Shown here: piece after piece, positions 3,351 to 61,700 of the stretch | Position numbering within the stretch: position 1 is the first letter of the stretch | Layout: the number at the start of each line of letters is the position of its first letter | From: Trebouxia sp. TZW2008 | Taxonomy: Eukaryota; Chlorophyta; Trebouxiophyceae; Trebouxiales; Trebouxiaceae | Assembly (NCBI GenBank): GCA_002118135.1 | Contig: BDIU01000211.1 | Coordinates: forward strand, 372,001 to 436,000 | Direction of reading: 5' to 3' | DNA: 64,000 nucleotides | The notes under the pieces: model-generated | The model's database searches: none | What the model was told of the DNA's origin: nothing | Seen by the model: the letters and a program-made list of their open reading frames with translations, nothing else | Program-made: the position numbers and the translations under genes

Positions 3351-4723
3351 GTTCGAAGCAAATCTGGCAAGTCAGATGCAACGGCGAGGACTGCACAGCG
3401 GCGCACTGCTCTGTTGCGTGCAAAAGGCTCAGCATGCAATTCAGCCGCCCAACAACCCTTTGAAAGCCCTGATTGCCTAAACAAGCCTTAAAGGCCGTCC
3501 ATCACGTTGTGACCAAAGTCTTCGGCCTGCGAAGCTTGCAAAATCGAGCGCAAATTTGGCTGCGGCGCATACTAGTGCCAATCATGACGACAATACATGC
3601 TGGGCGCATGAGCCAATGTATGCATGGACAGCGTTGCCACTCTCTGCCTGCAGCTGAGCTTCCTCGTGCAGTAACACAGGTAGCTTGCTCACGAACTTAG
3701 CGCAAGCGACATTGTGCCCAATGACGACGGTAGGAAACAGTCTTAGGGCGTTTTGTTGCAGCTGCAGGCAAGCAAGCCAGTCACATGCGGCCGGCGACGG
3801 CGAGCAGAAGCGATCCGGGCTCAAAGGTATGCTCCCGACATGGAGCCTTCAGTCCCTGTTGTGAAGGAAACCTCCTGATCATGCCATATGCCATTCTTGC
3901 ACATCAATTACTCCGCGCAGCCTGTCCATCTGGTGTTGATAAGTACAGCAATAGACATGCACTGATCTGCTGTTTGCAAATCTGCTTTATTTCCATACTG
4001 CAGGCAAGACAGCAGAGTAGAGGCAGCATCAGCGAAGCTCACTCCTTCTGAAATTAAGCAGGCTCAACAGCCACAGCAGGTACATGCAATTCCTTTCTTC
4101 CGGGCAGGACTTCATGAATATAAACGCCTCTGCAGCAGTGTATTTAGTGGTTGCCAAAAACGAATGTCCAACGCATTGACAGTCGCAACATGCCACCACA
4201 GCAGAACAATCTGCATGAGCAGTCTTTGCAATGAGGAAAAGCGTTCTGACTGATACATATGCAACATGACTCATGACCAGAATCATCTGCATTCTTCTGT
4301 GCTTGCCTTTTCTGTCTGCTGACGGCTGCAGATAATGGTTGAAGAGGCACAGGCTAACATCTCAGGGGGTCAGACAAGCAGACAAAGCCGCAATTTCTCA
4401 CAATTTGGATGGTCTGACATGTTGGGTTGTCATCTATGACATATTGATTTTATTATTGTACAATTAATGGACAGCAACAGGCTATCAGCGGGGGGAGGTT
4501 AGACAGGCAGCCATGGTGTCTTTCATCCTGTTCCTCACATCAGGTTTGCCTGTTTACAGTTTGCTAATTGTTGCAGTATGATGACTGGACAACAACAGGC
4601 TATTAGCTGGAGGGAGCCAGACAGGCAGCCAAAGCCTCCATGGACTCTCAGTCCCCCACCAAGTGGGTGGACAGCTTTGTATTTTCAACTTTACCCCTTC
4701 ATGACATCTTCATTTTGTTGCAG
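3351..4723. promoter_or_regulatory. Divergent intergenic region between bS6 and acetolactate synthase
   Basis: This holds the 5' flank of bS6 (minus) and the unseen 5' end of acetolactate synthase (plus). A candidate first exon for the latter is 3785-3826: ATG followed by 13 codons rich in Arg, Ser and Ala, then AAG|GTATGC in phase 0, matching the phase-0 acceptor at 4724. It would supply only the very start of a transit peptide, so I rate it about 0.35. The 4348-4660 part consists of decayed copies of the exon at 4724. No TATA-like element stands out. Confidence 0.4.
4348..4660 (+). repeat. Exon echoes of acetolactate synthase exon 4724-4984
   Basis: Three degenerate copies of the first ~80 nt of the exon at 4724 lie upstream of it, at about 4348-4392, 4466-4520 and 4571-4660. 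The copy at 4571 keeps the acceptor and the run GCAGTATGATGACTGGAC, compared with the true GCAGTATGACGACTGGAC. All keep the 'CAGACAGGCAGCCAAAGC' core in altered form. The reading frames are broken, so these are not functional exons. Confidence 0.75.
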
Positions 4724-7700
4724 TATGACGACTGGACAGCGACAGGTTACCAGCTGGAAGAAGCAAGGCAAGCAGCCAAAGCTTCCATGGACTCACAGTC
4801 CCCTGATGAGTGGGTGGACAGGTTTGGCAGCGAGCCCCGCAAGGGAGCAGACATTGTGGTGCAGTGCCTTGAAAGGGAAGGCGCCCACCGTGTGTTTGCT
4901 TACCCTGGGGGAGCGTCCATGGAGATCCACCAGGCCCTGACGCGCAGCAACCTTGTGAAGAACATTCTTTGTCGGCATGAGCAGGTACTGTGTTGCATTA
5001 TGAGGTGAACGCTTTGCATATGCACCAAATAGACTGCGTAAGGCAATGCAGTAGCTTGCCTTAGCTTTGGTCAGCGGTGCCCTCATGTGTCAGCCACCAT
5101 TCAAGATTCACATATGCCGTTACCGCTTCTTTGACAGATCTATCTGTTTTCAGCCACATGCTTGCAGCTGACAATCATTACAGCATCTACAGCGCGGCTG
5201 CAGATGTTCAGATGGAAGCATTGCTGTGCAAGTCCAAACCTCCTCAGACCATGTTGTCATTTCTGCAGGGTGAAGTATTTGCAGCAGAGGGCTACGCCAA
5301 GACTACTGGGGATGTGGGTGTGTGCATAGCTACCTCTGGGCCTGGAGCCACAAACTTAGTCACTGGCCTGGCTGACGCCCTATTGGACTCTGTGCCCATG
5401 GTTGCCATCACAGGCCAAGTGCCACGTAAGATGATCGGCACAGATGCCTTCCAGGAGACGCCCATTGTGGAGGTCACAAGGCAGATCACCAAGCACAATT
5501 ACCTTGTGATGCAGATTGAGGACCTTCCAAGGTGAGCTTTGCTTCAGCTGTGACCGCTTTTCATGCGCTGCATCTCAGCTAGCAGGTTGCTTTAGGCTTG
5601 TTGACTGATTGTGACTACACTTTGACTTTGCCTATCAAGCGACTTAAGAACTCCATGCACGTCACAACTGAGAATTGCTCAAAGACGAGTGAGCCCCTGT
5701 CACCCTTGGGCGGAAAAGCAGATGTGCCCTGAGCAACATTCACGACAGCCCAGCAGCAGTGAGCTGAGAAACGGTGTCTTTCAGCTGTCAGCTGGGAAAG
5801 CTGCGCTGTGCTCAGTCTTGGCAAGGACTGCACAGCATGGTACACAGCAACACAGCTGATGTTCATGCTGCACTATGGCAGCATTGTCAAGGAGGGCCTG
5901 CTACCTAGCCAGGACAGACTCAGGCCGACACGCCCAAAGTCATCCAGCAGCAGCTAATAGGGCCAGGCTGGAGTGCTGTCTTGTTCACACGCACCTTGTA
6001 TCTCGTTTTATCAGTCAGCATCAGCGTCTGTTCTCAAAATGGTGTCGTGCTACGGCAGGATCATCAAGGAGGCTTTTTAGCTAGCCAGGGCTGCCACAGC
6101 TGCTGCTGGTTCATTTACCCAAGAACATTCAGCAGTGACTGGTTTGGCCAAGTTTCAGTGCTAGGATTGACACTGGTGCTGTATGCTGTGGCAGGATCAT
6201 CAAAGAGGCCTTCTACCTAGCAAGGACTGGCAGACCAGGACCTGTGCTGGTGGATGTACCCAAGGACATTCAGCAACAGCTAGCAGTGCCAGACTGGAGC
6301 ACCCCCATGGCCATTTCAGGCTACATGAGCCGCCTACCTCAGCCCCCTAGAGAGCAGGAGCTCAAGCGCGTAGTCGAGGCTCTGCATGGGGTAAGCAGCC
6401 AACGTTGAAGTGTGCCAGGCTTGACTAATCAAAACAGGAGAAGACTGCTTGTTACCCATAGATTGCCAGCCTCAGCACTGATTGCAACTATTGCTTCTCA
6501 AAATGCTTCTCTCTGTCATCAAGCTGCAGCTGAGAGCGGTAGCGGACCATACAAGCAGCCTGCGCAACTGTTGCACCGCTTGCTTTTCAAAAGGTCTCCC
6601 CGTGTTGACAAGCTGAGCCTGAGAGTTTTTTTGAGCACGCAACTTTGCATGCTCAAGATATTCGTGTGCTCAGCTTGTTAACTGTGGAAGACCTCCTGCT
6701 TACTTTGCACTGCCAGCCTCAGCAAATCGCCAAAAGAACCCTTCAACGCACTGCCAAGGGCAGTTTACGGTTCAGCTGCTTGCACAGTTGCTGCTGGGCT
6801 GTTGCTGCTGCTGCAAAGCTTCCTGTGCAGTTTATCTACAGAGCTATGTGCTTCTTTGATTGAGAGCTCTGTAAATAAAATTGCACAGCAAGGTTTGCAG
6901 CAGCAGAAAACAGCCCAGCAGCTACCGTGCAAACAATTGGAGCCCGAGGTGCCCTGGGCAATGTCTTGAAGAGCAGTTGAGTTGCTGTATGCCTCTGCTG
7001 CAACAAACCTTGAATTTTACAAGCAGGTCATGCTTTGCTGATTGGCAACAACAGGCTGCTGCTGTTGCTGTGTCACCTGTCAGTGTTGCAATCTTGGCTT
7101 AGTGTATAGACGGCAACTGCAGCAGCAAAGCTGTCATCACGCTGCATTCCTTAAGCTACATCATACTTTTTGTTTGGACAGGAACTTGTTGTCGGATGTG
7201 GGCAGCCCCAAGCTGGACGTTTTCTCATGTGCACATGATGTGTACATTCAACATTGTCATGTCCTTTTGGACAAAAGGCTATCAATTCTGTGTAGCATAC
7301 TCAATATAAGACTGGGTTATGATGACATGCTCAAGGGCAGGTGCATAGGTCTGACCTGCACGTACAGCTGTCTTAACTGATAAGAACGTTCTGGTCCACA
7401 CTTTGTGTGCATAAGCATCTCTGCCTCTCGAAACGGCATGCAAGCCTGATGTTGTTCTGCTGCCATGTCTTAGGCTGCAGCTGTTAAGAGGTAACATTTT
7501 GCTACGCGTTGGCTGAGGCTGCCCAGATGGTCACAGGCTGCTTCTCAGAATTGAATCGTGAACCTGTGCAGGGACGCAAGCACTTGCAGTCTATGACTGT
7601 TGAAAACAGGCATAGACTGCATCTGCAAATTGAACTTGGGACCTGTTGCAGGCGCGATAGCTTGTGCTGTGTGGGGCCAGGGGCTGCCTGAAAGCATAGT

Positions 7701-10700
7701 GTCACAACAGGCTGCCTCTCAACAGTTCTGTGCCAAGCCACAAAATCCATGGCCATCATTGTTCAAGTCACGCAGATCTTGTCCTGATCTTGCAAGCACA
7801 CATTCTGCATCTGGAAAGTGACAGATGTGATCATAGATTGCATTTGCAATTTGACTGATGTGATCATAGTCTGCATCAGTCAAACTCTGGACCTGTTGCA
7901 GGCGCGCAAGCCTGTGCTATATGTGGGAGGAGGCTGCCTTGATGCCAGCAGGGAGCTCAGGGAGTTTGTGGACAAGACAGGCATTCCTGTAGCCTCAACA
8001 CTGATGGGCCTGGGTACCTTCCCTGACAATGATGACAGAGCACTACAGGTAAGTAAATGATCATTTCGTGATAAGAGCATTTGTCTGTTCTGTTGTTCTG
8101 CGCTATTGAGCAGTCTTAGTGGACCCAGCTGCCCTGACAATCATGACACAGCTTTCCAGGTACATGCTCAGTTCATGGTGACAAGCGTAGCTAAATTATT
8201 GTTGAGCAGTCCTGGAGGGCGCATGTGTCCACGGCAGATGTGGTTGATAGCCACCTGTTGGTGTGATCCCTGTCACTGTTGGCATCAAGCATGTGTGGTA
8301 CAATCTGCTGCTGCATCTAACAGCCGCTTGTAACATCCACTTGCTTAAAGCACACAGCCTGCTTTGAACATGCTGCAAACACGCAGGTCTGTCTATGTTG
8401 TCCTGCCATGACCTACTTCTTGGTAGGTAGCAGCATCAAACATGCATCATGCAGTCTGCTGATGCATGCAAGAGAGGCTTGTCAATCTCATGCTGCTCAT
8501 TCATGCTTATTGCCCTGGTTACCATGGCCATCACGCCTGTGTCATGTTAGTTGCAATGAGGGCTGTCCCAGCTCAGATGTATTTTGTTCTTGCAGATGCT
8601 AGGAATGCATGGGACTGTCTATGCCAACTTTGCCGTGGACGAGGCAGACTTGCTGCTGGCCTTTGGAGTGCGGTTTGATGACCGTGTGACTGGCAAGCTG
8701 GAGACCTTTGCTTCCAAGGCGCGTGTGGTGCACATTGACATTGACCCTGCAGAGATCAACAAGAACAAGGAAGCACATGTCATGGTGTGCTCAGACACAA
8801 GACCAGCACTCAGAGGTGAGCATGTGTCTTGCCGTGATTTTCTGCTTGGTTTTGCTGATCACAAGTATTGCAAGGTGTGCATGATGCAGCGTATGTCGTT
8901 GTGTGCTTAGACATGGGTCCTGCTCTGGGAGCTGAGCATTTACTGTCAGCTTGACCTCCTCCTTTTGTCGCAGCTGGGCACAGTGTAAAGGTACCGTTCA
9001 AACAATGTGAAAGCAGTGTCTGAACAAGCAAGCACACATCATGGTATGCTGAAGGCACAATATTGACTCTCATGGGTGAGCATATGATGTTGTGTCGCTG
9101 CTTGCACTTGTTTGATCTGATACGGGATTGATCCAGAAGTTTGTGGCAAACTGCAGGGTGTGTGGCTGCTATGGCTGGGAGCATGCTTGACCTAGCATGA
9201 CAAGGCTTTGTGCAATGTCGCAAATCTGGCCCCTTCAGGTTGTGTTGCTTCGCTGGCTGCAGTTGAGGCCTTCAGTCTTCATGTAGCAGTGCCCCTGTTG
9301 CTATGCTACATGTCATTGAAAGACTCCTTTTGGTCATGCCGTCAGGTTTTTGACATCAGCTTCACATTGGGCTGTCACCACTGAGCTATGTGAATGTTAC
9401 ACTGGGATGGCCACCAAACTGACTGTATTTGCAGGCATCAACAAGCTGCTGGAGCAGCATCCAGTGCCTCAAGGGCAGTTCAGCAAATGGATAGACAGCA
9501 TTGATGAAGTGAGGAAGAAGTTCCCCATGTGGTATCCTGAAAAGGATGACGTCATCATCCCACAATGGGCTGTCAAGGTACAGTCATCATCCTGTAAAGC
9601 TTGTACTCAACAGATTGTGCTCAATCTACCTTGCAGTATACTAAAGCTACAAAAAAGCTCATAAGCATACAAGGAAACTTCACACTATGGCATTGCAGCC
9701 GATGAGTGTGGTACAAAGTGGTGCCTTGCTATCTATGGTGTTGCTATATATTGTACATTGCATCACAGCCAGGGCTTTAGCCTACGCCCGCTTCACGTGG
9801 TGGCTTGGCTTGTTTTTCACATCGCCTTTTGGTTTATATTCATCAGCTGTTTTATGCTCGCAATTTGATGTTGCTGCAGACGCTGTGTGAAGAGACCAAA
9901 GGCGAGGCAATCATCACCACAGGCGTAGGTCAGCATCAGATGTGGGCGGCGCAATGGTACAACTACAATGAGCCTAGGAGATGGGCCTCCTCAGGGGGTC
10001 TTGGGTCCATGGGCTTTGGGCTGCCTTCTGCCTTGGGTGCAGCAGTTGCATATGATGGCACGGACTCTGGCCGACCGCACAGGGTGAGTCTGCAGGCCCT
10101 TGTCATGTGTGCAACGACATATGCAACTGTATGTGGCAGGATGGGCTTCCTCAGGGGGTCTGGGGTCCTTGGGGTTTGGGCTTTAGATCTGATCACTGCA
10201 TTTGCTTGATGAGCTTTCACTTGATGGGCCTCGTCAGGACTGGGATCTATGAATGTTAGGCTGCCATCTTCACTGCAAGCAGCAGTTGCGTATGACGGCA
10301 CAGACTCTGGCCGACCGCACAGAGTGAGACACTCTTTTTTGTTGGTGTTTTGTCACCAAGCATGCTTTGTCATCAATTGTGCAGTGTCAGTCAGAGCGCA
10401 CTGACAGCATCAGAGGCTGCATGTTGGCGCTGGGAACAACAGTTGCATGTGATGGCACAGACTTTGGCTGACCGCACAGGGTGAGCCTGTACTTGAAGAG
10501 CTGTATTCTCCTTGTAGTGCTAACAGCTGCATGCATGTCAAGGGTTTTCTCTGGGGTCATGGGCTTTGGATTGCCCTCTGCCTTGTGATGCGGCAGTTGC
10601 ATACGACGGCGCGCACCCTGATCAACCGTTGAGGGTGATACACTGTGTCCTGTTTGGTTGTTGCCGTCAAGTGCGCTCTGAGAACATCACAGGCTGCCAC

Positions 10701-12775
10701 CTGCCTTGATGGTAGCAAACTTGTATTTGCTTATTGAGCTTTAGCCTGTCCTCTGCATAGCGCAGCAATTGGACATGACAGCATAGGATTTGGCAAGTTG
10801 CAGCGGGTGAGATCAAGTGTAAAGAGCTGCTTTTGCTTGCTGGGTTTTGGGCTGCCATCTGCATGGAATTTGCAGTGGCACAGTTCCTGCCCACTTGCGT
10901 AGGGTGAGTTACTAATGTCACCAATGTGTAGTGATTTTGGGTGTATATGGTAGACCTTGCAGCTGTGCCGTTGCGTTTGTGCCAGAGGCTTTGGCTTGCC
11001 CTCTTGAACGGGGCGAGCTGTGGCATAAGTCTGTTGTATGCAATGGCTGCTCCTTCTGAAGTGGGCAGTCCTGAGCCTATCGACCCAGACCCAGTGCATA
11101 GAGCGAGACGCTGTTGTTTTAAAGCGCATTGCGAGGTGCAGCTGCGTTCTTCATGAGTTCTTGAGATGGGCCTCCTCTGAATTTGAGCTTCATGGGCTTT
11201 GGCCTGCCCTCTGCACCAGGGGAGCAGCAGTAGCGTATGACAGACTGGACTGTGGCTGATTGCACAGGGGAACACACCGTTGTTATCGAGCGCCTGCAGG
11301 GTGCAGCTGTGCACAGTGTTGACTCCTAAACTGGGCCTGCTCACTAATCAAGGCTTTAATCTGCAGGTGGTGGTTGACATTGACGGGGACGGCAGCTTCT
11401 TGATGAACTGCCAGGAGCTAGCAACAGCCTTCATTGAGAAGCTAGACGTCAAATGCTTCATCCTGAATAATCAGCACCTGGGCATGGTGGTGCAGTGGGA
11501 GGATAGGTTTTACAAGCAAAACAGAGCGCATACGTACCTGGGCCACAGGGTGGGTCTTATTACAGCTGCAAAGCGCTGCATTTTAGACCCTTGTCTCGAA
11601 ACCTCTAGTGTCTTGAAATGCATGTGTCTCCAGCACACCTTCACTTGATTACTTGTCTGTGCAATTTGCAGAATGCAAACAGATCACTGACTTACCTGAT
11701 TGCACATGTGTCTTGCACACATGCTGTCTTGCACATAGGGTTGGGTGCTGCTGTATGCATTGCATGACACCAGCTCAGCATTCAGGCAACCAATCTGCTG
11801 CGATTAGGTGCTATAGAATGTTAGCATTACTCTCAGCATGTGCAGGCGTTGAGATTTTGTCATGGAAAATCACACCTGCTTGCAGCATCAGTCTGTACAT
11901 GATAAGGTTGAGCTGTGACTGAGCAAGGTGCAGTGTTGATACTTTTGAGCCTGGCTAGCTTGTTTGTGATGGAGGCAGTGACTGTGCTCAGTACAAATGG
12001 TGCAGGAAAGCACAGGACCAGACTGATTGGACACAACTGATTGCTCCAGTACGTACCTAGCTGAGCCTGCTGAGCACTGCCGCCTAGCACACATTTCATG
12101 AATGAAAGATTGTGCAGGATGCTGAGTACCACACATCGCATGAGATCAAGGACATCTACCCTGACTTTGTCAAAATGGCTGCGTCTTTCAGCGTGCCTGC
12201 CAAGCGTGTGTTGAGACCTGAGGAGTTGAGACCAGCAATCAGGTACAAGTCTGCTCTTATCCTGGTATGCTGCTGCATAGCATCGCAAAGCAGCGATTAC
12301 AAATTGTTTGTTGGGTGTTGATCATTTGGTGTGCAGTCATGTGGCTGCCCTGATTCAGAGCTTGTGCAGAGCTTGTGTGGCAGATGTAATTCAGCAGGGT
12401 TGCATGCTTTTGATCACCTGCTGTCCATTATCTGGTTGGTACCCAGGACGTCTGTTTGAGCACCATGTAGACTTGAGCCAATGTCTATCCACAGCAGATC
12501 TGTGTGCTCATCCAGTCTCAGAGCCTCATGTAACACGTGTGCCATGTGCGTGCATGCGTACTGTGCTTGTGCTACGGCCTTTCCAAAGCGTTTGGGATAA
12601 AGCTGCATCGTTCAGGCATGGTCGTATTTTATGCAGGGAAATGCTAGACACTCCTGGACCCTACCTGCTAGATGTCATGGTACCGCACATAGAGCACGTA
12701 CTGCCCATGATCCCTGGTGGTGGGTCGTACAAGGATATCATCACCAGTGGCGACGGCAGCATTGTCTATGGTTGA
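4724..12775 (+). CDS. Acetolactate synthase (acetohydroxyacid synthase) catalytic subunit
   Basis: This ThDP- and FAD-dependent enzyme condenses two pyruvates, or pyruvate with 2-oxobutyrate, as the first committed step of Val/Leu/Ile synthesis in the plastid. Ten exons chain in phase: 4724-4984, 5269-5531, 6195-6390, 7902-8048, 8596-8815, 9435-9577, 9880-10083, 11367-11549, 12118-12242 and 12637-12775 (626 codons plus stop). The start codon is not in these exons; the transit peptide must lie upstream (candidate 3785-3826). Landmarks are [20 protein letters not shown] with the catalytic Glu, [43 protein letters not shown], a ThDP motif of GDG-24 residues-NN, and [13 protein letters not shown]. 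Residues at the classical inhibitor-contact positions (Ala122, Pro197, Ala205, Asp376, Trp574, Arabidopsis numbering) are the usual ones. The Ser653 position reads Gly (MIPGGGSY). Several introns are stuffed with decayed copies of adjacent exons. Confidence 0.96.
5873..6130 (+). repeat. Exon echoes of acetolactate synthase exon 6195-6390
   Basis: Two decayed copies of the exon at 6195 (GGCAGGATCATCAAAGAGG...) precede it, starting near 5873 and 6052. The first aligns from the acceptor through the 'CAGCAACAGCTAGC' region with a gap in the middle. The second has an in-frame TAG soon after the acceptor. Both are followed by non-homologous intron sequence. Confidence 0.7.
7560..7700 (+). repeat. 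Exon echoes of acetolactate synthase exon 7902-8048
   Basis: Partial copies of the acceptor region ACCTGTTGCAGGCGCGCAAG occur near 7562 and 7641 (ACCTGTGCAGGGACGCAAGC, ACCTGTTGCAGGCGCGATAG). They are followed by a short, frame-broken likeness of the exon. A separate copy of the exon's 3' end plus donor is at 8108-8165. Confidence 0.6.
8108..8165 (+). repeat. 3'-end echo of acetolactate synthase exon 7902-8048
   Basis: The segment resembles the last ~55 nt of the exon including its donor: CCCTGACAATCATGACACAG then CAG|GTAC, compared with the true CCCTGACAATGATGACAGAG then CAG|GTAAG. It lies 60 nt downstream of the real donor, in the intron. Confidence 0.65.
8897..9088 (+). repeat. 3'-end echoes of acetolactate synthase exon 8596-8815
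   Basis: Two decayed copies of the exon end and donor lie in the downstream intron, at about 8897-8940 and 9025-9088. The second matches 'AACAAGGAAGCACATGTCAT' as AACAAGCAAGCACACATCAT and keeps GGTGAGCATATG at its end. Confidence 0.6.
10125..11270 (+). repeat. Array of seven or more exon echoes of acetolactate synthase exon 9880-10083
   Basis: The 1.28-kb intron 10084-11366 is largely made of degenerate copies of the 3' half of the preceding exon plus its donor. Anchors are variants of GGGCTTTGGGCTGCCTTCTG (near 10168, 10245, 10560, 10735, 10842, 10990 and 11190) and of GACTCTGGCCGACCGCACAG followed by GTGAG (near 10300, 10465 and 11245). Copies carry stops and indels. This array produces the spurious 225- and 132-codon minus-strand ORFs seen here. 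Confidence 0.8.
12004..12095 (+). repeat. Dispersed repeat, copy 1 (in acetolactate synthase intron)
   Basis: About 90 bp are shared with 49161-49250 in the same orientation: both contain GGAAAGCACAGGAC, then CTGATTGC, ACGTACCTAGC, GCCTGCTG and CTAGCACACATT in the same order with small differences. The two loci are introns of unrelated genes, so this is a dispersed element (possibly a SINE or other TE remnant) and not an exon echo. I see no tRNA-like promoter boxes. Confidence 0.6.
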
Positions 12776-13880: not shown

Positions 13881-14925
13881 ATGATGAAAAAATTCGGCAA
13901 CCGTGGCGGGGCATCCCGTAGCGGAGCGCAGATAGGCGTTGGCGCTCTTGTGCTCGGATTTGTGTTCCTGTCATGGTGTGTGCTGGTCGGAGGGTTGTCC
14001 GCCGTGCAGCATCGATGTAAGTCACGTTGCCGCATCTGAGACATTTGACTACATGTGACGGGCAGCTGTCGACCGCTTTGCTTGTGTTTCTGCAGCTAAC
14101 ACCAACAATCAGTTTGAGTTCGAGTGGTGGGTGAGCATCTCGACGCTTGCTTTCGCCGCACAGCTTCAACTTCGCAGGGCAATCTTGAAAGTATTGATGT
14201 AACTCCTTTTGCTGCGCAGATCATCTTCTTTGAGCTGTTCCTGGTGTTGACCGCTGCCATCGAGCTGTCGGTGAGGCTTTGGCCCGTCCAGCATGCATGT
14301 ATATTGCAGTGCACGCGTGCGGGGCGACAAAGGTGCATCACATCCAGTTCTGGAAGTAGGACGATACATGTTGTGCTGCAGGGGTTCCGCAGAGGCCACT
14401 CTGGTTTGGTCGCGCTGAAGGCCGTCAACACCGCCTTGATCATGCTGTACTGCCAAAGTGAGTTTGACTGCAAATGTTCTGTGTGCTGTCATCCTTGCCA
14501 GCTGCTGCCGTGTGCATCTCTGCCCCTGCACCAGTGAGAAAATGTCTAAGCTGTGCATTCACTCTATGGCGTGACTAGCCAAGACTCCGTGTACACAGCC
14601 ATCAGCAACTATCTTATAAGAGTGAATACCTCCAATCAATGCTTGAACAATGTGTGCTGCTGCAGACTGGAACAACAACCGCCGCAACACCGCAGTGTAC
14701 GGCGCTTACGGCATCAGAGCAGTCAGAACTGTCTTTGCTGGTTTCATCCTCCTCGCAATCTCCAATGCGTTGTTGATACTAACAATAGGAACAGAGCCTG
14801 CTGTGGATGACCACTCAGCACGCACTAGTGCTCCTGTCGCCTCTGCACCTACCGGTGTGCAAAGCACCAGGACACTTGGCGCATCAACTGCCCCTCTGGC
14901 AGGACAAGCCCAGACAGTTGTCTGA
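13881..14925 (+). CDS. Four-helix membrane protein, tandem copy A
   Basis: Five exons (13881-14016, 14096-14130, 14220-14270, 14382-14457, 14666-14925) encode 185 aa. Four hydrophobic segments are visible: about residues 18-42 (GVGALVLGFVFLSWCVLVGG), 56-74 (WWIIFFELFLVLTAAIELS), 80-98 (GLVALKAVNTALIMLYC) and 120-142 (VFAGFILLAISNALLILTI). A short basic N-terminus precedes them and an Ala/Thr/Ser/Pro-rich tail ends AGQAQTVV. The four-helix layout is reminiscent of MARVEL/CASP-like proteins, but I do not recognise the family and assign no function. The neighbour at 15790 is a paralogue with identical internal exon lengths. The start is the first ATG of an ATGATG pair in a GC-rich 5' region. Confidence 0.75.
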
Positions 14926-15789
14926 GTTAGCTAACTTAGTTTCAGCTGCTTGCTAGCAGCTCAATATTGAGCTGCTTCACAGCTCTTGTATCAACTGCTT
15001 AGCCGCAGCAGGAATGCTGTACAATTGCAAGAGGGGGCCTGCTTCCAGCATGACATCATTGGTCACTGAACCTAATCTGCCAAGAACAGATGAAACTTAG
15101 CTATTCTTTTGCCTGTTTGATTAGACCTTTTGAGTGCTGCTTTGTACAAAGTGCTGATGTGACATCTTTGGGAACTTGCATCTTTGCTGGCAGGGTTGCT
15201 ATGCTTGCTCTGAGACATCACTGAATGCTGTTGGCATAGCCTCTACACCGCTTGTCAGCTGTTTAGATTGTTTGAGATTTTGATTCTTCCTCAGTTGATA
15301 TGTGTGTAACGATTTCTCGTAAACTGATTCATTTGACCAGACTCTACTTTGTTGCTTGCAAACAGGCATGTTTATTATTAACTTCATGACCCATATTTTA
15401 TACATAATATCATGCTGAGATGTCTGGCAACACATCTCATTCGTCGTGTTCAGCGGCAAGGCTTATGAGTCTCCATCGAGATGGCATGGGAGTGCAGTCT
15501 GCAGGCCTACTCTCGACTAAGCAGGAGCACGGTCCAGGCTGCAGGACCTGCAGCAAAGACAAGCTGCGGATTTACACAGGCTAGCAGGCGGCCTTGTGGT
15601 GAGCTTTGCAGTGAGCTTTGCCATTGTACTCAACTCGACATCACCTGCCACTCCTGAGTTCAGATGCGGCAGAGGTGACTCAACGAAAAAACGCTTGCTT
15701 TGAATTCCGCAAGAGCTGTTGATCGGGCACAGCGCTACAGGCACCCGCAACCAGCATCTTCGCAGTGCTCGCTGCTGCACATCGCGACC
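14926..15789. other. Spacer between the tandem membrane-protein genes
   Basis: No exon is recognised in this 864 bp. It holds the 3' UTR of copy A and the promoter/5' UTR of copy B. The ~100 bp before 15790 are more GC-rich, as before copy A. Confidence 0.45.
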
Positions 15790-16829
15790 ATGGCTATGGT
15801 TAGACATAGCAAGGGTCATCTCGGAGCTGGAGCGGCAGTGCTTGCGTGCATTTTCCTCTCGTGGCTTATTCTTTTGGCTGGTATTGCTGCCTGCCAAAGA
15901 CAAGGTAGACCGCTCTTACATTCAAGGCAAATCAATCTTTTCAAAAACTCTGGTCTCGACTTACAACTTGTGTGCCTCTGCAGTCCTAGACAAGAAGTCT
16001 CTTGAGTTCGAGTGGTGGGTAAGTGCCATTCCTGGTTTGACTCCAGCTCAAGAGCGCCACAAACTTGCGCTTCCAGCTCAAGTCCCAAACTGACTCGATC
16101 TTTGTGCTGACGCAGATCATAGCCTTTGAGTTTCTGCTGGTGCTGCTTTCCGCAACCCACCTATCGGTGAGTTCTGCATTGGTGCAGCAGATCGTGTTTG
16201 ATCCCAGTTTGTGTTCATACAACAATCATGCAAGCATCGCTAGCATCAGCTTGACACCATGTACCAAACATCAACGCTGCTTGCAGGGATATCACAGGAG
16301 TCATGCTGGACTTGTGGCTTTGAAGGCTGTCAACACTGTCCTCTGCATGGTATATGCACAGAGTAAGCCAACATGCTTTTGTTTTGCTGATAGTCGAAGT
16401 GTTCAGCTGACTCCTTTGCAGCAATCACATATGACATGAAAGCCCTACAATGCAGATGCAAACACCAGCACATGGAACTGACACTTGCTTTCATGCCTTC
16501 CTGCAGTCTGGAACAAGACATACAGGCAGGGTGGCACAGAGTTTGCCACCGCGCTTGGGTTCTACCCCACCGGCGGTGATGTGGCAAATGTGTCAAACGT
16601 GACACCCCACCGCATCGACGCTGCTCTTGCGGGTTTCGTCCTGCTGTCCATCTTCAACACAATTCTGCTGGCCGTTCTTGGCACTGCACCAACTGTGGCT
16701 GCAACCGCCTACAACAACCAGGAAGTGAGGTCCACAAGAGGCGCGCCTGTTGGCACTGGTGCAGTCGCTGCCCCTTACGCCACTACTGCTGGAGCCCCAG
16801 TTGCTGGTGCAGGCCAGACTGTAGTTTAA
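15790..16829 (+). CDS. Four-helix membrane protein, tandem copy B
   Basis: Five exons (15790-15904, 15984-16018, 16116-16166, 16287-16362, 16507-16829) encode 199 aa. The second to fourth exons are exactly 35, 51 and 76 nt, the same as in copy A, with the same phases, so the pair arose by tandem duplication. Shared landmarks are FEWW at the second exon end, the third-exon helix (IIAFEFLLVLLSATHLS), the SGLVAL/HAGLVAL-KAVNT helix and a tail ending AGQTVV. Copy B carries a ~20-residue insertion after the fifth-exon WN motif. The first donor (CAAG|GTAGAC) is weaker than the rest, so the first exon's 3' end is the least sure part. Function unknown. Confidence 0.75.
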
Positions 16830-26915: not shown

Positions 26916-27054
26916 CGCGACCTGTTGTTCGCGGTGATGCTTGGACGGTGCAGCCGTGCGTGAGGCAAGTCAGAACGCAGGTATGCGCCTAAAGCTCTGC
27001 AGGCTCATCTGCAGCACGTAAGTAAAAGACGATCACTCAAAAAGCTTCTTCGCT

Positions 27055-27429
27055 GTGTCCGACGGAGATCGACAGCACCTCCATCAGCCAGCTGAACAAG
27101 AGCCGCCAAGGACTTTGACAAGTGGTCGTGTCGCAGCAGAGCAAAAATTTGCAACACAGCATCTCGGTGCTTCTGCAGAGCTGCAGTGCAAGCAGCTTAC
27201 GGGAGATCTAGAGCACAAGAAGTCGCTGAGCACGTCGGCGACGGCCGTGAACTGTATACCAAGACTTGACGAAAATACCGAAATGCGCAACGTCATGCGC
27301 GACCTCACTTTACCTTTTGCGCTGACACCCGATCTTGTCAAAATGCTCCAATCGCGATCGTCAAAGTTGAGCGTTGCGCGAAGCGACCGTCCCGCCTTCA
27401 ACACGTTCTGCAATAGGCCACGACTTTAA
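27055..27429 (+). CDS. Hypothetical 124-codon ORF, divergent from BTB 1
   Basis: An open frame of 124 codons starts at GTG, not ATG, so a true start may lie in an upstream exon or the frame may be incidental. The product is polar with one compact segment, RNVMRDLTLPFALTPDLVKM. The stretch is more GC-rich and CpG-rich than its surroundings, which supports coding or promoter function. It begins 139 bp from the BTB 1 start on the opposite strand. An overlapping 109-codon minus-strand frame is less protein-like. I recognise no family. Confidence 0.3.
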   Translation: MSDGDRQHLHQPAEQEPPRTLTSGRVAAEQKFATQHLGASAELQCKQLTGDLEHKKSLSTSATAVNCIPRLDENTEMRNVMRDLTLPFALTPDLVKMLQSRSSKLSVARSDRPAFNTFCNRPRL

Positions 27430-50669: not shown

Positions 50670-51432
50670 CTACAAAGGGCAAGCTGTGCCTCTGACTACA
50701 TCAGATGTACAGCTTGCTGACTTTTCCTTGGAATTGCCAATTGAGTCCTCGTGCCATTGCAGCAGATCAGTCAGGCTGACAGTATACCTAAAGGCACTCT
50801 TGCTTGCACAAGATTGTCCAGCTCGAAGCATTCGCAACATACAATCACGGCTGAGAGCATGTTTGGCAAAGGCAGAAGTCGTCCAAAATTTGTCGTCAAG
50901 GCTGGATAGCATGTACACCTCTGCATGTGCCAGCAGCGTACTGAGACCACATTGCTCAGCTAATGCTGCCCATGTAACAGTTTCTTCACCACTTGTAAAC
51001 ACGGAGGCAGGCCTGCCTTTGGCTTTAGCATCCAAGTAAATCTCGTACTCCTTGAGAATGCCTTTCAAGTCATACTTGTGCGCAAATTGCAAAATGGGAC
51101 GAGCAGTATCTGCACAGTGCAAGGAATACTTGCTCTGTAGGGTTGCGAAGCCTGTTGCATTATACTCATATAGGAACTTGAGCGCCACTTGTACTTCTGC
51201 CTGGGTATGACCAGTCAAAGCAGTGCTGAGCAGGCTGGACTGCTTTTCCGCTGTTGCAGCAGACTCTGCTGACGCCACAAACAGGTCAGCGAACACAGGT
51301 GATGCTGCCGCAAGCACCGCCTTGTGCACTGGAAGTTGCACTCTTCCACCTCAAGGTGAGCATCCGCCAGAAGGGCAAGCCGCTCTCTGGGATGCTATTA
51401 GCATGTAGATGAGCATCATTGCTCAACTTCAT
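50670..51432 (-). pseudogene. BTB/POZ domain protein 5, frameshifted
   Basis: Family similarity is clear but spread over three frames near the 5' end. The start MKLSNDAHLHANSIPE (ATG at 51432) is in one frame, LALLADAHLEVEE in a second, and PVHKAVLAAASPVFADLFVA onward (from about 51341) in a third. It then stays open to 50670 through the BTB core (TGHTQAEVQVALKFLYEYNA, PILQFAHKYDLKGILKEYEI) and the BACK-like tail (LAEQCGLSTLLAHAEVYMLS). One shift lies near 51385-51395, and the second near 51343 looks like loss of one base. With no introns in the family, this is either a recent pseudogene or two assembly errors. Most similar to BTB 1. Confidence 0.75.
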
Positions 51433-52678: not shown

Positions 52679-52775
52679 AGAGACAAAGAGACAAGACAGC
52701 CCTCAGAGCAAAACAACTGTTGTGTCCTTTGAGCAAAGACACTCCCTGGAGTGTTACCTGAGTTGCAGCTGTGTC

Positions 52776-55700
52776 TCACAGGTACAGGGAAGCTGCGAAG
52801 ATGATGTCCCTCTTGATCTTCTCCCTGCTTTGTTCAAACAAGGCCTCAAGATCTCCCTCCCCAATGACCTGAGCAGCGCTGCTGAGTTGGCGCAACACCT
52901 CCTCAATACGACGTACTGCCCTCACAAGCGAACCCTGCAGCATAAGTGCCCCCTGTCATCATCTAAGCCACAGCCACAGCAGTTCACTGAAGAAATGGTG
53001 TGTTGTCTGTGATGAGGCCGTATCAACATATGCAGCATCCTGCAGCTGTTTTGAGCAGGCAGGTTGCAGATTGACAAGTGGATGCAAGTTGAATTTAACT
53101 TGCTGTACACACATGCAGCAGACTAAATTGTAGTTGGCGCCTCAACAGAAAAATATGTTTAACACTTATGCCGACAAGACTGAGGCTCATAATCTCAAGC
53201 AGATCTGGTGTTACTTGCGTTGATAAGCATACAGCACAACTTAGCAGACATTGCAGTCAGCAGAATATAGCTAGCTGTACCTCAAAGACATCACTGAAGG
53301 TGATTTCAGCAGGAGTGGTGCCTTGTCACCAGGCAGAGTTCCCATCTATAATAGACCATATCAAGCTGTACTTCAAAAACATTGCTGCAGGAGAGGACTT
53401 TGGCACCAGGCAGAGACCACATCTACAGCAGAACAGCATTAAGCTGTATCCAAAAACTTTTCTTCATCACTTCAGCAGAAGTGGTGCTGTAGCACCAAAC
53501 AGAAGTTGCATCTACATAGTTCATAAAGCTGTACCTCAAAGACGTCAGTGAGGGTGAGAACTTTATCGAAAAGGGCGGCTTAGCACCAGGCAGCAAGTGC
53601 ATCTACATAGTTTGTGAAGCTGTACCTCAAAAGCGTCAGTAAGGATAATAACTTCGACAAAAGTTGCGCCTTGGGCACCAGGCAGAAGGCATCTGTCACA
53701 GACAACATCAAGCTGAATCTAAAGACATCAATGAGTATGAAAATTACATGATTGGTAACAGTGGCGCCTTGGCACCAGGCAAACAAGTCTTGTGTGACAG
53801 AAAAGATCAAGCTGTACCTCAAAATTGTCGGTGATGGTGAGGACTTTGGCAAAAGTGGCGCCTCAGCACCAGGCAGAGACAGTATCAACAACAGAAAAAA
53901 CGGAGCTTTACCTCAAAAACATCAGTGAGGGTGAGAACTTTGGCAAATGTTGCGCCTTGGCACCAGGCAGAGACTGCATCTATGATGTCTGGTCTGAAGG
54001 AGGTGGCGCAATCTTCAATGTCCACTGCCATCTTGCACTCCACTGCCACCTGAGCCGCATAATAGCAGCTGCTTTACTGATCCAGAAACACACAAAATGT
54101 GTTCAAATATTTGTTTTCAGAATGTGCAAGATGCATGAGCAAAGCGTCAGCACTCTGTGCTTCAGAGGCATGTGGAGCATGGAGACACCGCAGAGCATAC
54201 AAAGCAGGCAAAGCATGCAGAGCACATACCTTTGCAACAGTACGGGCAGCTTCACAGAGGGCGCCGTATGGGCCTTGCATGTCCTCTCGCACCTTCTGCC
54301 CAGTTTCTGCCCTCTCCTGCCAGATGAAACAGGAGGCAAGAGCTACAACCTGATCTGGACTCAACTCCTGCATATCCCAACCACCCTCAGCCATGCTGCT
54401 GAAGAGCATTTGGTCCCAAGTATTATTTGGACGTATCAGCTCTACAACAGAGTCCAGTGATGGTATCACCATGCAAATATGAAAGGCACAAAGCACAGCA
54501 TGGCATCCAAATCATTGCCACAGTATGGGAGTGACAGTCCCCTACGATGTTCAGCATGTCCACCATGGGAAAACATTGCTGTGTCATGCTGCTTGTTCAT
54601 GCAGCTTGCCCAGCAGGTTGCAGCAGCAAAGGCAATCCACATGAAGTTGACGTTCAACACTGGCAGCCACCTGTGACACTATGTGGAAGACACGTTCAGT
54701 CAACACCAGCTCATTAGCACTGGACAGTGCAATGAGCTGACTTGCAGTGGAGTCTTCAAGGTGAGTGCTGATGCTAAATGTGCACGCACTGCACTGCAAC
54801 AGACTGCACGGCACAATAAACATCAGCTCGCACCTTGAAGGCTTAATCGCAAATCAACTCAGTAAATATCAGCTGGTGAGCCATTGTCAGTGCACATGCG
54901 CTGCACACAGAGATTGAGAGGCAGAAATATTTGTGCTTCGTGCAATGCACACTCAGAAACAGCAGTCACCTTGCATAATCCGTCAAAAATAAGCTCAGTG
55001 AACACTAGCTCATCAGCACTCGAGATTGCACACAGAGAGAGATAGGATTTTACAAGCTTCATGCACTGCACAGTCCATGTCAGCAGTCACCTTGAACACC
55101 CCGTTGAAAATCAGCTCAGTCAACACAAGCTCATCAGCACTTTGGATCTCAGCTGCAGCTCTCCCCTTGACAGTCACGATGCCATCACTGTCCACATAAC
55201 CCAGGCGTCGCAGCACCCTGCGGCGCGCTTTCAGCTCTGACTGCAAAATCAGGTTTTGTGCTGCTTTGACTTCCTTTCTTGCTAGCCTTGCTTTCTCTGC
55301 CAATGCCTGCAGCATTGATAGTTTCAGGTCAGCAGGCCTTGTTGCCGCAGAATCACATTTTCTGCTTCTTTGACTTCCTATCTTGCCAGCTTTGCTTTCT
55401 CCGCCAATGCAACAGCACTAGCTGAGGGTCAGCGAGCCTTGCTGTGGCAACACAAAGTTTAATGCTGCTTTAAATTCCTTTCTTGCCAGCCTTGCTTGCT
55501 CTACTAGCGCCTGCAAAAGCATGAGATTAAAGTTAGCAAGCCTTGCCATAAGCTTTGTGCTGCTTTGACTTCCTTTCTTGCTAGCCTTGCTGTCTCTGCC
55601 AACGACTGCACAAGCACCAGCACAGCTTAGCCAGCTGTACCACTGTGAGCAGTAGCTTTTGTGCTGCTTTGAGTTCCTGTCTTGCTAGCCTTGCCTTCTC

Positions 55701-58700
55701 TGCGAGAACCTGCAGAAGCGTTGCAGCTTTGGTTGTGGTTGCATTCAGCTTACTCTGCCATTTTTGATACCTCAGGTGCATCAGTGATTTGCCTGACTTA
55801 CTTGAATGAGAGACTTTAGACAAGCCAGGCTGTCAGGTGATGCTTGAGCTATGACTGAAACCATAACATTTGTCCAGAAACAGCAGCTGAAGCTTGACCT
55901 GCTTGTGTCTCAGAGGGAGATGGGACCGTGTGTTACAGCTGGTACAATACATCTATGCAAGACCATCAGCTGACGCATTACCTGCTTGTGCCTCAGCAGC
56001 GTAAGGCGCTCTTGCAAAGTTGGACTGCTGGCAAGGGGGTGCTTTACCAACAACCCCTCCAAGGTTTCTGACTTGCGCTGGGCTTTACGGTATTCCCCGT
56101 CTGTAATGGACATGTCAGTTTCTGGATCTAGTTCAGGCAAGTCCCTCTTGAAACGCTTCCTGACCTCGTTGATGGCCTGCAGCAACAGTGCAATCAATTG
56201 ATGCAACATATTCCATTTCTGCCTGGTGTGCTTGGTCATCTCATCATTTCAGTTCTCATGCTATCTTCTCTGAATCAATTCAGTTCTCTTGCTAGCTTTT
56301 ACCGGTGACATAAGTAGAGAATTAAGCAGCTCTGCCTGGATTGGGCACAGTCAATCAACTACAACAGTTGTGTCCTTGATTGCATAAAGATATGAGCTTT
56401 GTGACAAAGTCAACTTGATACCTAAATCAATCAACTGCAACAATATGTAGATTCAAATGCTACACAACGCTAATGCATTGCCCACCAGTAATTCGCCTAC
56501 TCACCATCACCGACAATGAGGAATGTAAAGAAGCAAAGCAGATGTGACAATCAAAAGCACTAAGCAATGAGCATCACAGCAGATCACTTTGGTGCAGTAC
56601 AAATCAACAGTGATTGTCACATGTTGCATGACTCAGAATATGCAAACATCCGACAGGGTCACCTTGATGCCTAGAGCCCTTGCATCAGGTTGCCTGAGGT
56701 CCTTGGACAGGTAGATTCTGACGCTGCTCAGGGCTTCCAGCTCTTCAAGCCTAACAGGCACCACCTGAGGACTCCCTGCCGCATCAGACGCCACACACAC
56801 CGCTCGCCTGCAAACCAAGACAGCAATCATGGTGAAGATTCAGGTAACAAGCATCATCAGGCAAGAGAACGTTGCTGGGAGAGAGTCTGACTCTGCTGAG
56901 GGCTTCCAACTCGTCAAGCCTGACAGGCGCCACTTGAGGATTCCCTGCCTCATCAGCCGCCACACACGCTGCTTGCACTCATTCTGCGTCGGCTCACAGG
57001 ACTTCAGCCAAAACAGAAAAGTCAACAGCTTTGCCAACGCACTTTATGCCAGTGCACTGACAGTACAGTTGTCACGTTAAATGCCATCAGAGCCTGATCA
57101 ATTTCTTTGTGCAGTGCCAGCAGCAGAGGACATCCATGATAGAATGCATGCGTAAGTGATGGCTGCGCGCACAACGTGCAAAGCACTACCAGGGTGTGGA
57201 AACTCACACAGCATACTACAGTGCAAGTTCCATGCCTGAAACAGATTTGCAAAGCGTACAAGGCACAGTATGACCTAACATGGTACCTCTTGGGACCAGT
57301 GCCAGGTACGCTGTCAGCTTCACAATTGACCAACACATCCACAATGTATGGTCCCTCCTTTCTCTTCTTATGGCTTTCACCATCTCCACCATCTGTGTTT
57401 TCCTTCTTGCCCACACGTTCAAAATTGACCACAGCACCCCAGACTGGGCTTGCCAAAGCGTGCTCAGCATGCCTACCACTTGTACTTGTATCCCCATCCT
57501 CCAAACCTGAGTTGCAGGTCATTGCAGTCATAAGATGTGATGTGATGCTGTATGTTGTCATGTGAAGCTACTTTGCAGAAAAGGTTTTGAGTGTGCTTTT
57601 GACAATGCAGCTTGATTGCTGATGAGTCAAAGCGTTTTGTGATATGACTGAAACAGGATTCTGCTGCATGACAGTACCATGCAAAAGGCTATACCATGGA
57701 GTAGAGACAGCACAGCACAGCACAGCACAGCACAGCACAGCACAGCGCAGCGCAGCGCAGCGCAGCACAAGCGTTTGGGATTGCAGGCACACAGTTTTGA
57801 CGCAAAACATGAGCATCTGACTTACTTGATGTTGTTGTTGCAATGTTGACAAGGCGTCCAGGCTGTAGAAAGGGCAGCACATGACGGGGCTGGTTCACTA
57901 CAGCCCTCATGGCTGCCTTTGCAGCTGCCAGCTGCTGCTGCAGCTGTAGGTATGACTCAACCAGCTCCTCTTGAGACACTTGTACCTTGTCTCGCTCCGC
58001 CTGTATAGCAACAAGCGGCGTGATTCGGTTGTAGGCTTGCAAAATGTGAGACAGTACAAATCAGTCAGACAATGCACAAGCCATGTCGTAGTCGACGTCG
58101 TTGTTGGCTACATGTGCGGTTGTATCTGGTCATACGGACTTTATGTGTCAGCTTAAGCATTGCAAAAAGCGTTATTAAGCTGTGGCTTAAGATTTTGAAA
58201 GTCTGATGCAAATTTTATTGCATATATTGTCGAATAAGTACATGCATGCCATCATCTCCGGACAATGCAGTGCCAATCCCTCTTACCTCCAGATCTTGAA
58301 CCTGTTTCTCCAGTTGAGGCAAGGAGCGCTCCATCTGGAACTGGCGGTAAGACGCCCGCAGTAGTGTTTCAGGGTTTGCCCCCTCAACCCTGAGCATGTT
58401 CAGCAGCATATTGTACCCCAGGTGAAATTCGCTGTGGAGGGTATCCGGTGCGCCCTTGACCATATCCTTGGCTAATCCTGGTTCCATTTTGGTGTCCAGC
58501 ATCAAAACCACAACTCCCTTGTCATCCAGACCACGCCTGCCTGCTCTCCCACTCATCTGAATGTACTCTCCTGAGGTCACCCACCTACGCACAGACACCT
58601 CAAACTGTCTGTGGATTACAGCAGGGTTCAACAGGCGACATGAGCAATCAAGTTTGGCAGAACTGAGCAGGATTCAGCTTAGACAAGAGGTCATTAGTGG

Positions 58701-61700
58701 GTATCACAGTGTATTATTCAAAAGACTGCTGCTGGAAAGAGACATCACAAGGCATTTTGAACGCAAGCTTGACATCCATATGGCCCATAGATAACAGCTT
58801 TGTGGGGAGTTGCCTGCTTTTGGAGGGACTGTGTCCTTATTTGCATGGGCTAAGACAGATGTTCTGTTGCCACAATGCAGTCCTATGCAAGTGCATACAC
58901 AGCATGGTGAAATGCACAAGAGAGCAGTCCAGTGCAGAGTGCAAATTGCCCAATGAAACTGTGATATGCAGCCTGCTGACCTGAAAGCTCCCCCATCAAA
59001 CTTGCGCGCATTGGTGAAGACCACAGTCTTGGCAGGCATGTTCAGCCCTGTGGAGAATGTCTCTGTGGCAAAAAGCACCTGCACGGTAATAAAGCAAAGG
59101 TGGACATACATCAAAGCAGCACCATTCAGATGCTCATGACTACATACACTTAGCACCTGCTTTGGTTATTTACATTTGGTCCTGTAACGCAAACTCTGCC
59201 GCAGAGTTTCATGCAGGACCAGTTGCTTGATGCATGATCTCCAAGCGCGTGTTGTAAGTCTCAAAGGTAAGAACATGGTGCTGTCTAGTTTGCATAGAGC
59301 AACACCTTGATGTGACCCTATCGGAACTCATCGACTTCCTTCAGCATTAGCAGCAGCCTCAAATGATGCATCCCCTTCTTCAACACAGCAACTGCTCACC
59401 GCGATCATCCGACACCGTTGGTAGAACATAGCATGTCACCATTTTGACTAGTTGCTGACCTTGATGAGGCCCTCTTGAAAGAGGATCTCAATGACTTCCT
59501 TGAGGATTGGTAGCAGCCCAGAGTGATGTACCCCTACCCCCCTCTTGAGCATGGGTAAAATGGCATGAATGTGAGGTAGCCTGCGATCTTGCTCGCTCAG
59601 AATGTCCACAGCATTCCAGAAGACGCCCTCTACCACTTTCTTCTCAGCATCATCATTCAGATCCATGTCTATCATCTGAACCACCAGTCCTGACTTTAGT
59701 TGCAAGAAGCAGAAGCCGTGTTTGCTCTGCATGCCTGTTTGCAGCAAGGCTCACAGTGTTCACCATCACAAGCGGCTGAGCCTTTCATTTCTTTCTGCCA
59801 TGCAAAGCGTCATTTTTTCCTGCCATGCAAAGCATTAGGATTGCTGCAGGAACGTATCAACAGATGCGCACACATAACATACCTGCTTAGCCAGGTTCTC
59901 ACACTCCTTTTTGCTGAAGCTGAAAACAATCAATGGGTCGTAGTTGCGCTCCATACACATCCGCACAATCTTGTAAATGTCAGGCTTCTCGTTGGGGCCG
60001 GTTTTGGAATTGCCCTTCTTGTTGCCCTTGCCTGAATTGGCTCCTGGCCTGCCCTTGGCTTCAGCAGCAGCTTCTGTCAGGGCTCCAATGGCTTTCTGGA
60101 AATTATCTTCTCTGAACGTGCCTACACAGAACTCAGTGCAGTGATGATAGGCATCCCATTCTCAGCAAAAGCACCAGGGTCCTCGCATGGTCCAGCTCAA
60201 TACACACAGAACTCAAAGAATGCAGATGAGTCTGGCTGATCCTTCAGAATCAAGCTGAGGACCAACTGACATTGGGTCAGACAGACTGCTGCCTTGCTGA
60301 CATCATTGGGTGTAGACACTGTTTGGTAAATGCTGAAAGCTATGTTTCTCTTGACTCAACTCACTGGAAGGAGCATCCATGTGCTTCAGTATACATGCCT
60401 TCGCAACTCATCAGAAGGCATTTTAAACACTTTACATCAAGTGCCGCACAGTGCTTGACGCCACCACTGCATGTTGCCAGCAACTCATACACCCTCAACA
60501 ACCTCAACCTATGTCACCTTTGACAAATGCGTCAGCAACAGCGAGTCCAAACTCTGTGCAGCCCTACTCAGCGTCTAGACAGAGTGAAGCAGCCTGCCTA
60601 CCTTTCTCATCAACCACCATATAGAGTCCTTGAGCCCCTGATGGGAACAGGTAATGCTGAAGAGGAGTGGGCCGGTAGTCTGTGTACACCACATGACATG
60701 GAGATCGGTGTGTTTTGGCAATCCACTCAGCAAACTCTCTGGCATTTGGGATTGTAGCTGACAGGAAAACAAAACGGGCTGTTTTGGGAGCCATGATGAT
60801 GCTCTCCTCCCAGACTACACCCCTCTCCTTATCCCTCAGGTAGTGAATCTCATCATACACAATCAGTTGCACCTGCACACAGTCAATCAAGCAACTTGTG
60901 TACAAACAGTGACTAAGATGACTTGAAATGGACTTTCCTCGGTGAAGGTCATACACAATAACAGGAAGTCATGCCCGTGTCGAAGTGCAGGGGCTGATGG
61001 CAACTGCTTGTGGGCTTGGGCATGTATTGATGTCACTGTTGTTGACAAACTGCTTGACTCCGTCAGCAGCGCGAGTGAGCCATGAGGCAAGAGATCTGAG
61101 CCAGCTGCTCATTGTATGAGACTAGCCGAGGTCACTCTGTTGCTCAGACAGGGTGCTTTACTGTCTTGACGAAGGCAAAACTACTGTCCAGGACTTGCTT
61201 TGCTCAATGCAAAATCTGAGAATAATTGAAAGGGCTATCAAGCTAGAAAATTAATGCTGTCTCTGCACGCAAGACATGCGAAGTAGAGCCTTGGCCAGCA
61301 GCGTATGACAGCTCACCTCTCGTACAACTTCGCTTCCTTTGTACAGCATGCTCCGCAGAATCTCAGTTGTCATTACTAAGCATGACGCGTTGGGGTTGAT
61401 TGTGACATCTCCTGTCATAAGCCCAACATCCTGAAACTCTTCATACAGCTGGCGGTATTTCTGCATGCACGCATGACAGCCATGTCATCAGCATAGCATG
61501 CAATGCATGATGGATTGATGATACAGCCTTGGGTGCACAATGCAGGCAGAGATTTATGCCTGTTGCTAAGCAGGTTTGGCTAACAGCAACTTGTGCATCA
61601 CTGCATTTGTACATGACTGACAACAGGCAGCGGTGCGTCTTGCATACGGATCGGGCAGTTGTACATGTGTGAGCTTGCTGTACCTGATTGCTCAGTGCCT

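Follow-up and report, generated by a model that had tools for sequence, protein, structure and literature searches.

Junction copies in four genes of the window

The stretch analysed here, which we call the window, comprises 64,000 nucleotides of the green alga Trebouxia sp. TZW2008 (GenBank assembly GCA_002118135.1, contig BDIU01000211.1, positions 372,001 to 436,000; coordinates below are those of the window). Four of its genes have introns that carry degenerate copies of a neighbouring exon end, hereafter echoes: ALS (acetolactate synthase), a gene for a HAT/TPR protein, a NatB/MDM20-like (NAA25) gene and MTR4. We listed 34 degenerate copies, corresponding to 31 distinct places, at 18 predicted exon ends. 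Three places within 55347–55602 are counted under two exons, which makes copy totals slightly high, because the predicted exon 55641–55709 is itself an in-frame copy of 55091–55306. A first-pass annotation, made from the sequence alone, had described about twenty such places in the four genes, each with between one and seven or more copies. Its observation holds, with six further copies at an unpredicted MTR4 exon, and extends past the window; copies were also found in both arrays that it had singled out, 53300–54000 and 43500–44250.

The ALS gene (~4.0–12.8 kb, plus strand) shares 92% identity with ALS of Trebouxia sp. C0009 and C0005, and by reading, each echoed segment occurs once in the ALS proteins of two Trebouxia strains. 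Exon 4724–4984, recognised by its junctions, reading frame and this 92% identity, has its start and acceptor copied upstream, with two acceptor-side echoes (4468–4513 and 4577–4646, together 4468–4646) at a 147-bp period, one with a TAG stop. An acceptor-side echo of exon 6195–6390 lies at 6059–6123, and donor-side echoes of exon 8596–8815 lie at 9022–9060 and 8888–8939. The end and donor of exon 9880–10083 are copied downstream in an array spanning 10140–11269, made up of 10256–10322, 10415–10480 and 10564–10628 with further pieces at 10140–10182 and 11220–11269.

The HAT/TPR gene (plus strand) has a donor-side echo of exon 19919–20009 at 20124–20170, and exon 23072–23154 is flanked by one echo upstream and three downstream (22865–23595). 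These assignments are ambiguous, as the gene encodes a repeat protein, a second possible source of similarity among its parts. On the minus strand, the NAA25-like exons 39904–40063 and 40653–40919 have acceptor-side echoes at 40165–40232 and 40990–41044, respectively. The arrays at 42.7–43.5 and 43.5–44.3 kb are also real: the former holds three acceptor-side echoes (42907–43315, ~171-bp period) of predicted exon 42236–42798, which lies beyond the Pfam-matched part of the model, and the latter holds five donor-side echoes (43551–44149, ~140-bp period) of predicted exon 44222–44428.

In MTR4 (minus strand), the array at 53.3–54.0 kb repeats the 3' end of an exon absent from the gene models (53912–54035), which we named from its translation by reading; its last base, 53912, is clear and its start approximate. 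Six donor-side echoes (53273–53886) align with scores of 24–51 and 78–86% identity, and a weak seventh (53469–53514) with a score of 18 and 70% identity, compared with a best score of 9 on reversed sequence; the exon query was one base short at its end, and its start is probably an exon-internal AG. Exon 55091–55306 has echoes on both sides, two on the donor side (54676–54721 and 54970–55020, within 54676–55020) and four on the acceptor side (55347–55410, 55447–55502, 55554–55602 and 55641–55709, within 55347–55709), the last of which is modelled as an exon. In MTR4 of known structure such a segment occurs once, whereas the gene model here has two (55091–55306 and 55641–55709). An acceptor-side echo of exon 56663–56807 lies at 56907–56976.

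Junction copies in a sample of the genome

The genome comprises 68,541,624 bases in 527 contigs. Our sample consisted of the window and 18 stretches of at most 10 kb each (174 kb) from elsewhere in the genome, picked by contig number and blind to content, for a total of 238,313 bases. Two further 10-kb stretches served as a hold-out, for which the gene-finder model was frozen. This small gene finder was trained outward from ALS, and its penalised setting gave 28 models with 225 exons; an earlier setting, which produced an excess of tiny exons (up to 3,619), was dropped. For the exon-end test (exons of at least 45 nt, score of at least 6), up to 80 nt per end were aligned to the flanking introns, with reversed introns, inverted introns and introns of other genes as controls.

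Same-strand copies in the adjoining intron were found for 64/333 exon ends across the 238 kb, compared with 0/333 in reversed and 1/333 in inverted introns. Exon starts recurred in the upstream intron at 36/166 ends (reversed 0, inverted 1) and exon ends in the downstream intron at 28/167 (0 and 0). Far ends matched less often, with exon ends in the upstream intron at 12/166 (0 and 0) and exon starts in the downstream intron at 8/167 (1 and 0), so that the junction side is favoured by 64/333 to 20/333. The exon's own intron outscored all 20 foreign introns at 48/166 upstream and 43/167 downstream ends, where about 8 would be expected for each. Chance is excluded, since reversed, inverted and foreign introns give far fewer matches.

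The first-pass annotation had called the process genome-wide-looking, and the 18 other stretches agree with this: 47/244 junction-side ends have a copy, and of the 17 stretches where exon ends were usable 12 are involved, compared with 17/89 ends in the window alone. The hold-out (20 kb) gave 4/25 ends, with controls at 0/25, on models that are gene-finder predictions without homology support. We also defined a set of 70 supported exons from protein and domain matches, including ALS, MTR4, NAA25, VPS41, SufB, Dus, IFT122, coatomer epsilon and an ABC transporter; two of the 17 gene groups had fewer than two supported exons and were left out, leaving 15, and the cyclin N and 2OG-Fe(II) domain matches among those used fall slightly under the Pfam cut-off. 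Among these exons, 25/106 ends have a copy (reversed 0, inverted 1 of 106).

Profile searches placed further cases on contigs C57, C150, C165 and C328, and possibly C144. On C57, an XPG-family exon occurs three times in a row, with steps of 155 and 172 bp and TGA stops in two of the three. The HSP70 search found one exon on C150 with two further copies (steps of ~174 and ~172 bp), another with one copy ~166 bp away that contains two TAG stops, and a copy ~316 bp away on C165. An exon copy ~191 bp away was found on C328 with the AAA profile (19/180 candidates scored), and C144 holds a possible Cpn60 case. Counted by hand over these and further searches, 10 extra matches with at least 30 shared model positions occur among the 220 matches listed, at six gene loci.

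A diagonal scan looked for direct repeats 40–2000 bp apart. Such repeats cover 35,312 of the 238,313 bases (14.8%), amounting to 23% of predicted exon, 19% of intron and 7.6% of the remaining bases. In a first version of the scan, direct repeats were present in 23/24 pieces, compared with inverted repeats at similar distances in 9/24 and matches between one piece and another in 2/24.

Structure and decay of the copies

In a fuller count, 65 exon ends had 117 copies between them (acceptor side 58, donor side 59): one copy at 35 ends, two at 18 and three to six at 12. The alignment crosses the junction by at least 6 nt into the intron part in 81/117 copies (44 acceptor, 37 donor), by 1–5 nt in 17, and does not cross in 19. 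Since intron sequence beyond the junction is included, what is copied is genomic DNA with its splice junction, and not spliced RNA. Several close pairs are in tandem, with 0–6 bp between copies, which together with the 81 crossings upholds the earlier proposal of local, same-orientation tandem duplication over exon-intron junctions. The distance from real to copied junction has a median of 166 bp and falls at 120–180 bp for 32/65 ends and at 180–240 bp for 7/65; the MTR4 array at 53.3–54.0 kb, with a unit of 91–94 bp, lies outside this peak. Copy offsets show no bias towards multiples of three (47, 47 and 45). Breakpoint microhomology was inspected in seven arrays, three of them multi-copy. 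A whole-genome search with the arrays 53300–54000, 43540–44330 and 10090–11300 returned self matches only, plus the source exon for 10090–11300; the echoes at 53273–53886 and 43551–44149 each occupy a single genomic place.

Exon and echo differ by 0.156, 0.113 and 0.237 at codon positions 1, 2 and 3. From these sequence comparisons, we read the difference as a uniform component of ~0.11–0.12, which would be that of a free echo, to which mainly synonymous change in the exon itself is added. Just before acceptors, the intron parts differ by ~0.24, in line with both copies being free, and the mean echo-echo distance (0.239, against 0.374 for the summed exon distances) is what a shared exon branch would give. 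In-frame stops are present in 28/117 copies, where 21–30 are expected under free decay, and frame-shifting indels in 49/117. As a class, the copies do not keep an open frame under constraint, although individual copies may differ. The earlier suggestion that one copy stays under selection and the others decay agrees with these counts, and the echoes appear to decay about neutrally.

In echoes that extend at least 15 nt on the intron side, the acceptor is kept in 23/33 (0.71 expected), and purging of decoy splice sites was not seen in this set. An apparent keeping of splice sites beyond chance (41/52 acceptors and 39/44 donors) was set aside, being partly an artefact of alignments that end at the site.

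Origin of the arrays and their distribution

We consider it likely that the arrays arise by DNA-level tandem duplication of a junction-containing segment, with the spare copy decaying inside the intron. A segment holding one exon-intron junction, at exons mostly 120–180 bp long, would be duplicated in tandem at the DNA level. Splicing would stay with the junction copy joined to the rest of the exon, leaving the mRNA unchanged, and the spare junction copy would become intron, be freed of constraint and decay. Repeated rounds would yield an array and a longer intron. We infer that splicing ignores the spare splice sites and that introns grew by junction duplication.

Other origins predict different arrangements of the same copies. 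Intron gain by tandem genomic duplication (the AGGT model) also involves tandemly duplicated exonic sequence, and the 0–6-bp spacing suits it, but it expects the intron to open with the duplicated start of the downstream exon or to close with the duplicated end of the upstream one; 0/117 copies lie within 6 nt of these positions and 81 bring the old junction along, making this origin very improbable. That the copies are duplicated exons in alternative (for example, mutually exclusive) splicing use is suggested by echoes that are in frame and modelled as exons (MTR4 and apparently four more models) and by residual codon periodicity among echoes, yet stops at the neutral level, frameshifts in 49/117, copying of mostly one exon end and offsets without a multiple-of-three bias render it improbable. 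Mobile introner-like elements would place related sequence in many introns, as is seen here; the relation, however, is to each intron's own exon, and with three arrays matching only themselves or their exon genome-wide, we give this origin next to no chance, in keeping with the earlier claim that the copies are not mobile. An assembly artefact comes to mind for a genome in 527 contigs that was judged from the assembly, but is hardly to be credited when copies are ~10–25% off their exon, whereas assembly errors would be near-identical.

Several observations weigh against the junction-duplication account favoured here. Echo-echo differences at codon positions 1, 2 and 3 (0.196, 0.157 and 0.230) retain a codon periodicity unlike that of one-time neutral decay; copies leaving the exon at different times, or past coding use of some, would give it. 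Young copies are scarce, which is unexpected for a steady ongoing process, with exon-echo divergence below 0.05 in 1/117 copies, 0.05–0.10 in 11, 0.10–0.15 in 20 and 0.15–0.20 in 38. A past burst, or assembly collapse of near-identical copies, would fit this rise of copy number with age; steady birth and loss would not. Donors in echoes with at least 15 nt on the intron side are kept slightly above expectation (23/28 vs 0.68, p 0.07). Profile searches with proteasome, Aldedh (12/65 candidates scored) and AMP-binding (13/56) models gave no match pair with at least 30 common model positions and no clear echo. The exon models rest on gene-finder prediction, the homology-supported subset being 70 exons. 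Finally, the 55/197 modelled introns that carry echoes have a median length of 670 bp, compared with 361 bp for the others (p 8e-7), a difference that is partly unavoidable, as longer introns have more room. The first-pass annotation's statement that introns are built from decayed copies of their exons is overstated, in that 55/197 introns carry echoes and junction copies make up 21% of bases in these 55 introns; local-duplication arrays of every kind extend over 27.5% of intron bases. We likewise tone down its 'main mode of intron growth' to a possible one.

A further possibility is an ordinary genome-wide background of local tandem duplication, in which the conserved exon copy keeps junction copies recognisable for longer. 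The scan found 139 local-duplication arrays, of which 88 touch a predicted exon, 20 are intron-only, 28 lie outside modelled genes and three straddle these classes, with the caveat that clustering can merge arrays. Intron-only arrays (20 in 107.7 kb) and arrays outside modelled genes (28 in 99.7 kb) exist at similar density, as such a background would have it; because of this similarity, any excess of arrays sits at exons. With supported exons, and two ambiguous arrays omitted, 38 exonic compare with 8 intron-only arrays, a comparison slightly favouring exonic arrays, as these may reach 300 bp past the supported span and intron-only ones may not. A purpose-built simulation of random placement and decay, with an assumed age distribution, predicted 30–41% exonic among genic arrays at divergences like those measured, against 88/108 observed and 38/46 for supported exons. 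When all copies were made old (divergence 0.25–0.5), it predicted 65–71%, from which 38/46 does not differ significantly (p 0.053) and 88/108 differs mildly (p 0.009). Unit size speaks against a common background, with units of 120–180 bp in 38/88 exonic arrays compared with 6/48 intron-only and non-genic arrays (p 0.0002). Detection is unlikely to account for the drop above 180 bp, since longer units are easier to see, but it partly accounts for the fall on the low side. An excess of arrays at exons is likely, not proven, and with moderate confidence we hold that the excess and the 120–180-bp unit seem to go beyond background duplication, which as a full account is possible but doubtful.

A unit of 120–180 bp resembles the size of a nucleosome or an Okazaki fragment. 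Why exons and units of this size are favoured, we infer rather than observe, and three readings fit the exon excess: junctions may be duplicated more often, on the nucleosome or Okazaki-fragment scale; exon-touching arrays may be lost more rarely, as their contraction would leave the exon with a damaged echo joined to it; or introns may have been much shorter at the time of duplication. Only tentatively would we suggest that a distinct duplication process, its unit of about 120–180 bp matching a nucleosome in size, favours exon junctions, where arrays are either made or ratcheted, and that it has been a leading source of intron lengthening in Trebouxia. Were exon junctions truly preferred, one would have to explain how exon position bears on duplication, or else what selective ratchet acts on arrays.

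Internal gene duplication, the subject of Gao and Lynch (2009), is similar in that within-gene duplication is a common event; it reportedly deals with coding parts and introns that were duplicated, and not with decayed copies of junctions inside introns. In the potato RdRp gene PGSC0003DMG402000361.L, one tandem duplication over an intron-exon boundary created a new intron (PMC4974935). Its unit, the 3' part of an intron plus the 5' part of the next exon, matches the acceptor-side geometry seen here. Whereas the potato case is a single recent event in one gene that made a new intron, the Trebouxia copies number dozens, in many genes, on donor and acceptor sides, inside existing introns and often in decayed arrays. 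Tandem genomic duplication is among the intron-gain mechanisms proposed in a review (PMC3443670), and the version of Hellsten described there shares with our arrays that tandemly duplicated exonic sequence becomes intron; it differs in that 0/117 copies are at the predicted position and the old splice junction is copied too. Introners, a bulk source of introns that occurs in green algae, are mobile and unrelated to the host exon (PMC9860276), unlike the Trebouxia arrays, which are local and related to their own exon. Faulty Okazaki-fragment maturation makes short local tandem duplications (PMC13202174); a link to exons is not described in the available part of that paper, which offers only a possible source of the 120–180-bp unit.

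Pervasive decayed junction copies in introns were not found among the titles and abstract beginnings listed by word searches of an open-licence library, a scope outside which most subscription papers fall. In the main text of two Trebouxia genome papers, the term 'tandem' occurs in neither, 'introns' does not occur in PMC12712428, and 'intron' does not occur in PMC11523091. The first-pass annotation had known of no account of the process as a main mode of intron growth. For an individual event this is too strong: a single junction-spanning duplication was already known from potato (PMC4974935). It is the scale of junction copying that appears new.

A measurable part of the intron sequence, which is usually without readable origin, here derives recognisably from the exon next to it. 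Given the unit size and a rough neutral-decay clock, intron growth could be dated and its mutational source tested. In-frame echoes can pass for exons, as in MTR4 and apparently four more models, so that annotations of such algae may include spurious duplicated exons. The predicted proteins of L005, L006, L011 and L013 have near-repeated segments that resemble in-frame echoes modelled as exons.

Other features of the sampled sequence were noted in passing. Within the window, an inverted-repeat-like stretch was seen by eye at ~1921–2200, and the first window piece gave 88 inverted hits; this is possibly a small transposable element. On the plus strand, adjacent models at 14096–14854 and 15612–16724 have matching exon patterns and similar hydrophobic products and are apparently tandem paralogues. 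A run of related open frames on the minus strand, BTB/POZ-like by reading, occupies 26151–35542 and 50670–51350, and the segments 32048–32370 and 32795–33117 are 98% identical, a recent partial duplicate. Models L002 and L003 have in common a stretch that, by reading, resembles retrotransposon reverse transcriptase. Models L017, L012 and L005 match IFT122, ARMC9-like CTLH and NYD-SP28-associated domains and are flagellum-related genes in a lichen-alga-like genome.

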